A stretch of 23,848 nucleotides of DNA, from positions 1 through 23,848 of IMG/VR virus record IMGVR_UViG_3300013138_000045. The stretch is one strand, 5' to 3'. This DNA is from a virus. The notes under the pieces were generated by a model, which had not been told where the DNA came from, did no database searches, and worked only from the letters and a program-made list of their open reading frames with translations. Every line of letters starts with the position of its first letter. The stretch's first letter is position 1. A program made the translations under genes and the position numbers. Below are positions 16,978-19,755 of this stretch, piece after piece.

Positions 16978-19755
16978 CTAGTCGATTACTGGTAAAACAG
17001 TGCAGGTGCAGTTGTGTGTTATAATGTTATCTGCCATATACCAATTCAATTTAGTGGAAAGGTTATAGACGTGGCCGCAAAAATCGACCTGCCTAACTTT
17101 GACGATCTTGTCAGCCGTTACCAGTCCGGGGAAAGCCCGCGACAGCTTGCCGAAGAATGGGGCGTCAGTCGCCCTACTATCATTCGCAAACTCTTTGCTG
17201 CCGGCGTCCAGATCAGAGGCCCGGAGGAAGCCAGCGGGGTATTCCTTGCCAGCACTACCGCTGAGTTTCGCAAGGCTCGCGTTGCCGCTGCTCATGAGGC
17301 GCGGCGAGGCGCTCGTGATAGCGTTACCGCCAAACGAAGGCGTGCCGCCACTCGCGAGGCTCGTTGCCTGCATACCAGTCCCGCTGAGAACAAGCTCACC
17401 GCCATGCTGAGACGACGGGGTCTCAGCATCACGCAACAGAAGGCTATTGATATTTACAATGTCGATATTGCCATACATGAACCTTCCATCGCCGTGGAAA
17501 TCTTCGGCGGAGGGTGGCATGGATACGGAAAACACTCCCAACGCCACGGCAGCAGACTCAAACACATTCTCGATAGCGGTTACAGTGTGGTCGAGATATG
17601 GGTCGATGGTCGCCGCTACCCGCTCGGGGTCGGAGCAGTTAATCAGATAGTCGCCCTTGCCGAGATGCTGCGCGGCGACGAATCCCTTATCAGTCAGTAT
17701 CGGATGATTCGGGGTGACGGTAGTTCTCACACCGGAAGAAGTCCTAATCTCTATGACCGGTCCTGAATAAGAGGTACGCTGCGCCTCAAGTAGACCGGGA
17801 GCAATTACCTGCGCCCCTGGGATGTAGCAATTCGGATGCGCTGGCTCAGATGACACGTCAACGCCGGGAAAGTCGTCACCGATATTCACGGTCTGCCCGT
17901 CAGCTTCTTCACATATGCCGGAAGAGCAGGGGCCGGAACCGAATATCCATTCAACCTGAGTCACATCGTTCGAGCGGTAACTCTCAAGTTGCCCATTGCC
18001 CCAGGCATTAGCCGACTCGGTGCGGGCTATCATCTCTGCCCGGTAACTTGATGCATCGGTAAAGACGCCTTGGACGCGTTTTTTCATTTCCTGATAACCT
18101 TCGCCTCCGGAGATGCCGGCGGTTATCTGGTCCTGTAACTTGGTGAGCGTGGTTGATGTAACCTGCTCGGCGAGTTTCTGACCGATCTTCCCTGCGGCTT
18201 CGATAACATAGGTATTCTCGATATCCCAGGCGATTGTGCCACCGACGAGTTGTTCCCCATTCATGGCGCCGGCTACGATGGCCGCTTTAAGCTGATCGTA
18301 AATGGCGGTATGAGTCAGCCCTTGTTCATCCATCTCGTTGAGCAGTTCGGACGCCGTGAGCTTATTCTGAAGGCTCTTGCCTACCAGTTCTGCCAGCCGC
18401 TTGAGAGCCCGCTTCATCTGATCGTCGAACAGTCCCTTCATCGCTGCTGTCATCTCATCGGCTATGGGAGTCAGCAGCCGGTCACGTGCCGCAAACGACT
18501 TCTTGACCCGTATCTTCGCCAGGGTGTCACGCTTGGCTTCCTTGCCGTGCGAGCCGCCACAGCCGCATGACTTCTCAGACTTCGCCGGCGGTACATCGAT
18601 AAAAGCATTGTTATTTCTAACTGGCGGCTCATCACCCCATGCCACTGGCTCCTGACCACGTGACTCACGCACTTCATTAATGGTGGCCAGTCCTACCTCG
18701 ATCTCTTTGACCTCACGCTCGGAGCGTTTATTTTTATCCTCAGCCAGCGCCTCTACTTGAGAGAAGTCGAACTGACAGGTAACGCCGGCGACAGTGCGCG
18801 GCAACACTTCACGGTTCAGGATCGCCGCGAGCTTGTTGCAATCGCTCTTAATGATGCCACCGTAAAACATCTTCAACTGCGCTTCGGAATTGGCATAGTT
18901 GGCATATTCGAACAGACCAACCATCGCCGGGTAACATTCCATCCCTGCAATGATCTCTTCACGTGACAGTTTAGCCTGTGCCAGAAACTCCGCGTCCTTA
19001 GGCGATAGTGCCACCGGATTTAACTTGAGCCCGCCGGTGAGGATCATCGGATTATGGGCGTTCTGATAACCGCCATGCTTCTTTCTAAGCGCCGCTTTCA
19101 ATCGTTTAATGACATCCTTGTTAGGACTGCCATCAGACTCAAGGACATAATCAGGACGGGCAGAGTTTAAAAAGAAGTTCTTGCCGTACTTGCGGATATA
19201 TTCGCCGGTGTCTATCGCCAGAGCCATCGACTCAATAGGGCTCATCCCGTACCAGTCGTTATAGGGATGCTCATACTTGGAATGAACGACCTGTTCACGG
19301 GGGAAGTCTTGTGCCTTGCCATTGACCGTATGAGTGTAGCCGATAGGCACCCTTAGCCCGGGTTTCACTGTCATGCGGTCTGTCCTCATTGGATAGATGC
19401 GACCGATGCGACTGCCGACCAGGGCAAGTTCCCAGTAAGCGTTCCCGGTAAGCGCCATGAACAGTTCCCATGACTCGATGAGATCCGTGAGGCTCATCTC
19501 TTCGTTTGGGTTTTTTAAGATCGGCGGCGTGTCAATCGGCTTACCGTTGCGGGAGAAGAGTAGCGGCACGCTTGACACTGCCTTAGCACGGGCTGAGGCA
19601 CAACGGTAGACCCACACTTCCGAGCCGTAAGTCTGCTCGAAAGCAAGATAATCCTTCGGCCTTTCGGCCCCATAGCCGCCATAACCCATAATGACATCAG
19701 GGCTGGCTTTCATGTCACCAACGGCCAGATATTTGAGGTTCTGCCAGAGGTTCAA
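16978..19755 (-). CDS. Portal-MuF fusion protein containing an intein
   Basis: A 925-aa precursor. Residues 1-390 are an HK97-type portal (KDYLAFEQTYGSEVWVYRCA, LTGNAYWELALVG, EYIRKYGKNFFLNSARPDYV, EFLAQAKLSREEIIAGMECY), through which DNA is packaged. After a SCGCGG linker, residues about 415-642 plus 916-925 are a MuF minor-head domain (SYRAEMIARTESANAWGNGQ, CSSGICEEADGQTV, final HPN|CTCTVLPVID). Residues 643-915 are an intein (see separate entry); splicing would give a 652-aa portal-MuF. The ATG overlaps the terminase stop as ATGA. Portal and MuF are more often separate genes. Because both essential head functions sit in one chain, they depend on splicing if the intein must be removed. Confidence 0.92.
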   Translation of the reverse strand: MNLWQNLKYLAVGDMKASPDVIMGYGGYGAERPKDYLAFEQTYGSEVWVYRCASARAKAVSSVPLLFSRNGKPIDTPPILKNPNEEMSLTDLIESWELFMALTGNAYWELALVGSRIGRIYPMRTDRMTVKPGLRVPIGYTHTVNGKAQDFPREQVVHSKYEHPYNDWYGMSPIESMALAIDTGEYIRKYGKNFFLNSARPDYVLESDGSPNKDVIKRLKAALRKKHGGYQNAHNPMILTGGLKLNPVALSPKDAEFLAQAKLSREEIIAGMECYPAMVGLFEYANYANSEAQLKMFYGGIIKSDCNKLAAILNREVLPRTVAGVTCQFDFSQVEALAEDKNKRSEREVKEIEVGLATINEVRESRGQEPVAWGDEPPVRNNNAFIDVPPAKSEKSCGCGGSHGKEAKRDTLAKIRVKKSFAARDRLLTPIADEMTAAMKGLFDDQMKRALKRLAELVGKSLQNKLTASELLNEMDEQGLTHTAIYDQLKAAIVAGAMNGEQLVGGTIAWDIENTYVIEAAGKIGQKLAEQVTSTTLTKLQDQITAGISGGEGYQEMKKRVQGVFTDASSYRAEMIARTESANAWGNGQLESYRSNDVTQVEWIFGSGPCSSGICEEADGQTVNIGDDFPGVDVSSEPAHPNCYIPGAQVIAPGLLEAQRTSYSGPVIEIRTSSGVRTTVTPNHPILTDKGFVAAQHLGKGDYLINCSDPERVAATIDPYLDHTVTAIENVFESAAVALGVFSVSMPPSAEDFHGDGRFMYGNIDIVNINSLLLRDAETPSSQHGGELVLSGTGMQATSLASGGTPSFGGNAITSASPRLMSSGNASLAKLSGSAGKEYPAGFLRASDLDAGSKEFANDSRATDAPFFGKLSRAFPGLVTADKIVKVRQVDFCGHVYNLSTKLNWYMADNIITHNCTCTVLPVID
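17017..17025 (+). promoter_or_regulatory. Extended -10 promoter for antisense endonuclease, inside intein block G
   Basis: The plus strand reads TGTTATAAT, a perfect TGnTATAAT extended -10. No good -35 exists at 16-18 bases upstream, as is typical for extended -10 promoters. Transcription would begin near 17032, 39 bases before the GTG at 17071. The same bases, read on the other strand, encode the end of the intein (I-I-T-H region). Confidence 0.65.
17056..17062 (+). promoter_or_regulatory. Ribosome-binding site deciding GTG 17071
   Basis: GGAAAGG lies 8 bases before the GTG at 17071, ideal spacing. It is the reverse complement of intein block F codons (around Asn898-Ser900 of the precursor). 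It favours 17071 over the upstream in-frame GTG at 17014, which lies before the proposed promoter. Confidence 0.65.
17071..17766 (+). CDS. Antisense homing endonuclease: HTH plus Vsr/DUF559-like (EDxHD) PD-(D/E)XK nuclease nested in the intein
   Basis: A 231-aa protein encoded entirely inside the intein on the opposite strand. Residues 8-48 are a helix-turn-helix (DDLVSRYQSGESPRQLAEEW, GVSRPTIIRKLFAAGV). Residues 60-102 are a basic Ala/Arg linker. Residues 103-180 are a Vsr-like PD-(D/E)XK nuclease: E106 in SPAENKL, QQKAI, D132 in YNVDIAI, E143 in VEIFGGGWH with W149-H150, then LDSGYSVVEIWV. This is the EDxHD-type arrangement seen in phage homing endonucleases. Start GTG 17071 is chosen by GGAAAGG at 17056-17062 and the extended -10 promoter. 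Its codons are in exact register with the intein's (residue r pairs with precursor residue 896-r). It is the only credible plus-strand gene here. Expected role: cutting intein-free portal-MuF alleles to drive homing. Confidence 0.9.
   Translation: MAAKIDLPNFDDLVSRYQSGESPRQLAEEWGVSRPTIIRKLFAAGVQIRGPEEASGVFLASTTAEFRKARVAAAHEARRGARDSVTAKRRRAATREARCLHTSPAENKLTAMLRRRGLSITQQKAIDIYNVDIAIHEPSIAVEIFGGGWHGYGKHSQRHGSRLKHILDSGYSVVEIWVDGRRYPLGVGAVNQIVALAEMLRGDESLISQYRMIRGDGSSHTGRSPNLYDRS

Follow-up and report, generated by a model that had tools for sequence, protein, structure and literature searches.

An intein and an antisense nuclease gene at one locus

We analyzed a 23,848-base virus record (IMG/VR record IMGVR_UViG_3300013138_000045; the whole stretch is referred to here as the window) in which a head gene on the minus strand contains an intein, and the intein contains, on the plus strand, a separate open reading frame (ORF) for a putative nuclease. 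The host gene (16978..19755, minus strand) is an ORF of 925 amino acids with Pfam matches to a portal domain (Phage_portal, PF04860, E 5e-60), a MuF domain (Phage_Mu_F, PF04233, E 1e-10), and an intein domain (PF14890, E 1.6e-8) that at 35.0 bits scored 0.8 under the cut-off of 35.8. There was no Pfam match to a LAGLIDADG-type sense-strand endonuclease domain in the host ORF.

The insert in the host ORF is, by its motif content, a predicted self-splicing intein. It spans 273 amino acids (17011..17829, minus strand; HPN/CYIPGAQ...ITHN/CTCT, slashes at its two ends), is flanked on the N-terminal side by HPN, and is followed by a short C-terminal extein, CTCTVLPVID and a stop codon. We read from the minus-strand sequence an N-terminal block A region beginning with Cys1 (CYIPG..., 17809..17829), block B with its TxxH (TVTPNHPIL, 17695..17721), block F (GHVYNL, 17059..17076), and the end of block G (I-T-H-N, 17011..17022), in which the terminal Asn is followed by Cys. 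The intein is not split, as the ORF from 16978 to 19755 is single and uninterrupted.

The plus-strand ORF (17071..17766) encodes 231 amino acids and lies in the codon-aligned antisense frame, such that each of its codons complements exactly one codon of the minus strand. Pfam, a structural model, and superposition together indicate an N-terminal helix-turn-helix and a Vsr/DUF559-like core. For the window protein itself, Pfam matched the helix-turn-helix, and the nuclease families scored below their cut-offs (MTES_1575, 26.0 bits vs 38.2; DUF559, 19.2 vs 20.6). Among 25 members of the nuclease family, 22 matched MTES_1575 at E ≤0.01. An AlphaFold2 model made from these 25 members had a mean predicted local distance difference test (pLDDT) score of 88.6, and its C-terminal domain superposed on VSR (Z 11.1, root-mean-square deviation 2.5, 116 residues aligned), on NGO0050 (Z 10.8), and on the catalytic domain of the homing endonuclease I-Bth0305I (Z 9.8). 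A Foldseek search with the model gave no match at E ≤0.001. Residues E106, D132, and E143, which may or may not correspond to the EDxHD residues, are invariant in A1, and one relative (L033) weakly matched a homing endonuclease family in PHROGs (E 8e-4). Based on the model, we conclude that the protein has a Vsr-like fold; from the fold and the setting, we infer that it is a homing endonuclease, and it probably helps the intein to spread.

Candidate start signals of the nuclease gene lie in splicing-block codons

The apparent start signals of the nuclease gene are complements of codons for the C-terminal splicing blocks. On the plus strand, TGTTATAAT (17017..17025) fits TGnTATAAT, the extended -10 of a sigma-70 promoter. 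Its complement, ATT ATA ACA, encodes Ile-Ile-Thr, the three residues immediately before the intein's final His-Asn (17011-17016), so that the -10 codons overlap the end of block G. Transcription from this -10 would be expected to start at about 17032 on the plus strand. Further downstream, GGAAAGG (17056..17062) is the complement of the Asn-Leu-Ser codons in block F (GHVYNLS) and resembles a Shine-Dalgarno sequence, with a core of AAGG that is weak alone. Eight bases after it is the GTG start codon (17071..17073), which pairs with CAC, the codon for the block F His. The original prediction had placed both signals at these positions, and direct reading of the sequence confirmed them.

A second GTG in the same ORF, at 17014..17016 on the plus strand, is the complement of the terminal His codon. 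We rejected it as the true start because it is upstream of the expected transcript and because, in relative L010, there is a stop codon between the two positions.

Within the window, the -10 sequence is rarer than the Shine-Dalgarno-like sequence under synonymous recoding. When the 20 codons of the window were redrawn according to the codon usage of the phage itself, TGnTATAAT appeared in 0.6% of draws (P 0.006), a Shine-Dalgarno match of at least 4 nucleotides in 57% (P 0.57), and the two together in 0.4%. We therefore dropped the ribosome-binding site of the window, taken alone, as evidence. A generic promoter scan of the window did not list the site, because it accepts only promoters with a -35, and the region where one would lie is extein. 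The statistical strength of these motifs comes from the relatives and not from the window itself.

The intein type and the antisense nuclease go together in many phages

We collected relatives from phage records and from viral and genome contigs, two of the contig searches contributing the best 80 of 272 and the best 80 of 178 matches. The nuclease was found by tblastn in 129 of 50,697 phage records, including phages of Salmonella, Gordonia, Pseudomonas, Klebsiella, Vibrio, and others; a single-protein query of viral contigs gave only 3 loci. In 19 of 20 fetched phage records the nuclease was unannotated and the host gene was annotated. Counting the window and its copy (L001), there were 221 nuclease-bearing sequences, and the codon-aligned antisense frame was open across the nuclease in 220 of them.

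The association was also seen when loci were found by the intein rather than by the nuclease. We searched for the motif GHVY[ND]LxTxxGWY as a DNA pattern with all synonyms and found at least 120 loci. An antisense nuclease was present in 116 of 120; three of the other four loci run off the contig and the fourth gave no nuclease match. Among the first 80 of these loci, the nuclease was present in 77, and the remaining 3 extend past the contig end. Thus, the intein type and the nuclease go together. Every nuclease that we found within an intein runs antisense to the host gene, a result that gives no support to the suggestion in the original prediction that it could be expressed on either strand with respect to transcription of the host gene.

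We compared conservation of the two overlapping proteins in 80 pairs of related sequences whose nucleases are 55-97% identical. Similarity was higher for the plus-strand protein than for the minus-strand protein in 80/80 pairs (means 0.67 vs 0.56); the pairs had been selected by their plus-strand identity and are not independent of one another.

Two loci depart from the usual arrangement. In Acinetobacter phage BUCT629 (L021:2324-3217), a nuclease relative is free-standing on the opposite strand just beyond a MuF gene that has no intein; the locus looked like a counter-example only until this arrangement was seen. In Kagunavirus fEg-Eco06 (L024:1640-3631), a related intein is elsewhere in the same head gene, with an unannotated antisense nuclease.

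Codon choice in the splicing blocks is far from neutral

We tested codon choice with one sequence per cluster of 70% nuclease identity, leaving out L001 and eight sequences in which blocks F to G were not recognizable (L021, L064, L136, L196, L082, L203, L070, and L220). In 114 of the 144 clusters the codon for the block F His pairs with an ATG or GTG; the other 30 were excluded, 22 of them having a start within 5 codons. For the null expectation, the codons between the block F His and the terminal Asn were redrawn from the codon usage of the host gene. We called a promoter strict if it was an exact TGnTATAAT or a TTGACA-TATAAT pair at 10/12 or better.

Promoter-like sequences were in large excess in the 114 clusters. 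TATAAT was present in 44 vs 6.9 expected, exact TGnTATAAT in 18 vs 1.2, TTGACA-16/18-TATAAT at 11/12 or better in 25 vs 1.45, and any strict promoter in 50 vs 7.7. The codon choice in block G that the original prediction had proposed as a check is thus far from neutral. The excess was also present in the 60 clusters with a GC content of at least 55% (any strict promoter in 20 vs 1.7 expected) and in the 64 clusters obtained at 50% identity, of which 26 had a strict promoter of either kind (3.2 expected) and 43 had a Shine-Dalgarno of at least 5 nucleotides (9.0 expected).

The translation signals gave the same picture. A Shine-Dalgarno match of at least 5 nucleotides was found in 75 clusters vs 15.2 expected, and one of at least 6 nucleotides in 51 vs 8.75; the match was shorter than 4 nucleotides in only 9/114. 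The codon for the His at the start codon was CAT in 102/114 vs 45.8 expected. In the set of loci defined by the intein motif (42 clusters, mean GC 61%), TATAAT was present in 6 vs 1.5 expected and a Shine-Dalgarno of at least 5 nucleotides in 24 vs 7.0. The block F Leu was encoded by CTC in 97/120 of the motif-defined loci (usage 0.28), in contrast to 11/116 canonical inteins (usage 0.12).

Inteins without the nuclease and other sites in the same genes had no significant excess of start signals. We defined canonical inteins by the motif VYDLxVxxxHNF (at least 120 loci), removing 4 without block G and then 4/116 with a nuclease match on either strand. In the resulting 25 clusters, despite their higher AT content, TATAAT was found in 0 vs 0.70 expected, any strict promoter in 0 vs 0.35, and a Shine-Dalgarno of at least 5 nucleotides in 0 vs 1.8. 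The extein control consisted of 161 stretches preceding an antisense ATG or GTG in the same genes (70 clusters, 44/114 having been skipped). TATAAT was found in 0 vs 0.91 expected and a Shine-Dalgarno of at least 4 nucleotides in 38 vs 38.3; at 5 nucleotides or more there was a slight excess (13 vs 8.4, z 1.8).

The His that supplies the start codon was also more frequent at its position than in canonical inteins. It directly preceded VYxL in 114/144 clusters vs 16/120 canonical inteins, and was within 4 residues before VYxL in 132/144 vs 21/120. Where the His was displaced, the start codon usually shifted along with it. These results are suggestive of a need for the start codon shaping this position, and the His may also have a role in splicing.

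Two predicted promoter layouts are present in the family

We grouped the TATAAT sequences by their distance to the start codon, including three loci (L110, L060, and L118) in which block G was mis-parsed. The 52 TATAAT in the 144 clusters occupied two slots. In slot 1, which includes the window, 18 were 45-48 nucleotides before the start, in block G; TG was at the extended -10 position in 16/18, and a -35 of at least 5/6 was present in only 2. In slot 2, 34 were 22-29 nucleotides before the start, only 4 had TG, and 26 had a -35 of at least 5/6. Phage Aaphi23 (L019) has a block G without Ile-Ile and carries TGTTATAAT in slot 2, in different codons.

Slot 1 is within ~10 nucleotides of the end of the intein, and the lack of room for an internal -35 would account for its use of an extended -10. 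In slot 2, where block G was correctly parsed (n=31), the best -35 candidate was inside the intein. With either an extended -10 or an intein-internal -35, the predicted promoter would be independent of the flanking gene and would travel with the element. This reading of the sequences supports a promoter that is self-contained within the intein.

Other host genes and evidence for mobility

The same type of intein with an antisense nuclease is found in genes other than MuF. Deoxycytidine monophosphate (dCMP) deaminase genes (PF00383) carry it at two different sites (L248:718-2121 and L259:5186-6529). In two ORFs that join a uracil-DNA-glycosylase domain to a family A DNA polymerase (L299:2912-5428 and L303:2064-5519), the intein is in the glycosylase part. 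In all four non-MuF loci (4/4) the intein itself contains the start codon and a sequence resembling a Shine-Dalgarno. The idea that the nuclease could be expressed in any insertion context is supported to the extent that the signals are self-contained and that the intein occurs in MuF, dCMP deaminase, and glycosylase-polymerase genes.

Relatives have alleles without the intein. With MuF of Salmonella phage LP31 as the query (L002:2126-3985), 364 phage records matched, 58 of which cover at least 80% of the gene. Among the matches listed, most of the others were in two pieces spanning ~1,030 of 1,860 nucleotides, separated by an intein-sized gap. By these counts, MuF genes of Salmonella Jerseyvirus are polymorphic for the presence or absence of the intein among close phages, and the paper on phage Snoke reports a relative, K1ind2, that has no intein (PMC6776784). 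There is thus a nuclease fold in a mobile element with empty alleles, as in homing elements, the empty alleles being those of the relatives' genes.

The host gene itself varies in structure: the portal and MuF are encoded in one ORF in the window and by two genes in many annotated relatives.

Discussion

We think it very likely that the window contains a mobile intein with a putative homing endonuclease encoded codon-aligned and antisense within it, as a separate gene whose start signals are the complements of codons for the C-terminal splicing blocks. This reading brings together the positions of the signals, the conserved frame, the non-neutral codons, the two promoter layouts, the nuclease fold, and the empty sites in relatives, all of which were observed. 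In such an element, block G, and in many relatives also the codons just before it, would provide a sigma-70-type promoter. The Asn/Asp-Leu-Gln/Glu codons of block F would provide the Shine-Dalgarno, and the block F His codon would provide the ATG or GTG. After entry of the DNA, the plus-strand nuclease gene would be transcribed by host RNA polymerase, its product would cut intein-less alleles, and repair would copy the intein in. Later transcription of the head gene from the other strand would oppose or limit expression of the nuclease.

Several observations weigh against this interpretation. In the window alone, the -10 match is not significant by itself: TGNTATAAT occurs once on the two strands vs 0.47 expected, and at least once in 44/100 shuffles. 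The Shine-Dalgarno of the window is weak and of a kind expected by chance, and the start of transcription near 17032 is a prediction from the -10 sequence. We used the sigma-70 consensus, which may not apply in the host of this virus. A strict promoter is missing in 64/114 clusters, 6 of which score below the median of their own null on a position-weight score. Shared descent of codon choices also inflates the counts; descent alone is an unlikely explanation, because the two slots use different codons and the 50% clusters keep the excess. The original prediction held that the splicing blocks control the nuclease, and that relatives with an intact antisense frame and no -10 or ribosome-binding site would speak against this. 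Codon choice in the relatives is non-neutral and fits a promoter, Shine-Dalgarno, and start grammar, the translation signals being nearly general, as few relatives lack a sequence resembling a ribosome-binding site. The promoter part of the claim stands less generally, as some relatives have no clear -10.

We considered whether the motifs and the ORF might have arisen without any function in expression. If the motifs were by-products of the splicing-block residues and ordinary codon bias, a -10 within chance and a Shine-Dalgarno seen in most recodings are what the window should contain. However, recoding that preserves the amino acids falls far short of the motif counts in the family, and neither canonical inteins nor extein stretches are enriched, aside from the slight Shine-Dalgarno excess in the latter. 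This explanation is largely refuted, and we consider it very improbable. That the plus-strand ORF is no gene at all, and only an accident of the codon-aligned antisense frame, we find hardly credible. Composition can keep such frames open, and the ORF is mostly unannotated, but the Vsr-like fold is predicted with high confidence, the plus-strand protein is the more conserved of the two, and the median antisense open run is 20.5 codons in canonical inteins vs 274 in this family.

Two other explanations accept the gene and its translation signals and differ on the promoter. The TATAAT might be, for example, an operator to which the nuclease binds, or a recombination signal. The nuclease has an N-terminal helix-turn-helix, and the T4 intron endonuclease I-TevI is known to repress its own late promoter (PMC2988022). 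However, the two slots, each with its own promoter-type elements (TG in one; TTGACA at 17-18 nucleotides in the other), fit RNA polymerase and not one fixed protein site. We regard a TATAAT that is not a promoter as improbable; an operator could also overlap a promoter, in which case both readings would be compatible. Alternatively, the nuclease might be expressed mainly from longer transcripts of the plus strand initiated beyond the intein, with the internal promoter minor. At a GC content of at least 55%, 40/60 clusters have no strict promoter, yet 57/60 have a Shine-Dalgarno of at least 4 nucleotides; Gordonia phage Vivi2 (L009), a high-GC member, has a start codon and no TATAAT. Against this, the 64 clusters that lack a strict promoter nevertheless tend to exceed their own recoding null (mean percentile 0.84), and promoters of high-GC hosts may escape the consensus that we used. 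Expression mainly from outside transcripts thus appears unlikely.

The element resembles several known systems and differs from each. Like LAGLIDADG mobile inteins, it is an in-frame protein-splicing element, probably with its own nuclease, and empty alleles exist. In LAGLIDADG inteins a single polypeptide includes both the splicing element and the nuclease domain, whereas the nuclease here has a gene of its own, antisense and with separate start signals. Dassa et al. reportedly described 'fractured genes', which contain split inteins, in 2009. With these genes and with the Vsr-like (EDxHD) homing endonucleases such as I-Bth0305I, the element shares the nuclease fold, the phage setting, and the association with inteins; unlike in the fractured genes, the intein is encoded without a break in a single ORF and has the nuclease antisense inside it.

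In other known elements the endonuclease gene is out of frame, antisense, or preceded by its own promoter. ShiLan is an out-of-frame HNH endonuclease element in phage methylase genes; its nuclease also has a GTG start and, in another frame, overlaps an insertion left open in the host frame (PMC11855218). That text does not use the terms 'promoter', 'antisense', 'opposite', or 'reverse'. Group I introns in the nuclear ribosomal DNA of myxomycetes have antisense homing endonuclease genes, opposite to the strand of the host element and with a proposed promoter of their own (PMC9548176). They differ in being RNA introns, in using eukaryotic RNA polymerase II, and in having no overlap with protein-splicing codons. 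T4 I-TevI, -II, and -III are phage endonucleases with promoters within or beside the mobile element; they are in the sense orientation, and the promoters are in RNA-intron sequence rather than splicing-domain codons (PMC2988022). Our searches of an open-access library turned up no account of an intein with a nuclease on its antisense strand; one may have appeared in the subscription journals, few of which the library covers. The available parts of three papers (PMC8425127, PMC6669764, and PMC7282813) mention inteins and not this arrangement.

We regard as evenly balanced the broader proposal that these elements are an unrecognized class of mobile element, an antisense-nuclease intein, whose splicing domain is itself shaped by what the antisense gene requires. 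Under this proposal, the His that precedes VYxL would be retained for the start codon, and the C-terminal residues (IIT/IIA-HN vs VK/SS/AVS-N) would follow the promoter layout. If our main reading is correct, it would be a rare double use of a short DNA sequence, in which one strand encodes a splicing motif and its complement supplies a promoter, a ribosome-binding site, and a start codon, and this double use would recur across many phages, including common Salmonella phages. It would also mean that many phage genomes carry the nuclease gene unannotated. The arrangement suggests a route by which an intein may carry a nuclease that is not fused to the host protein and that is expressed wherever the intein lands.

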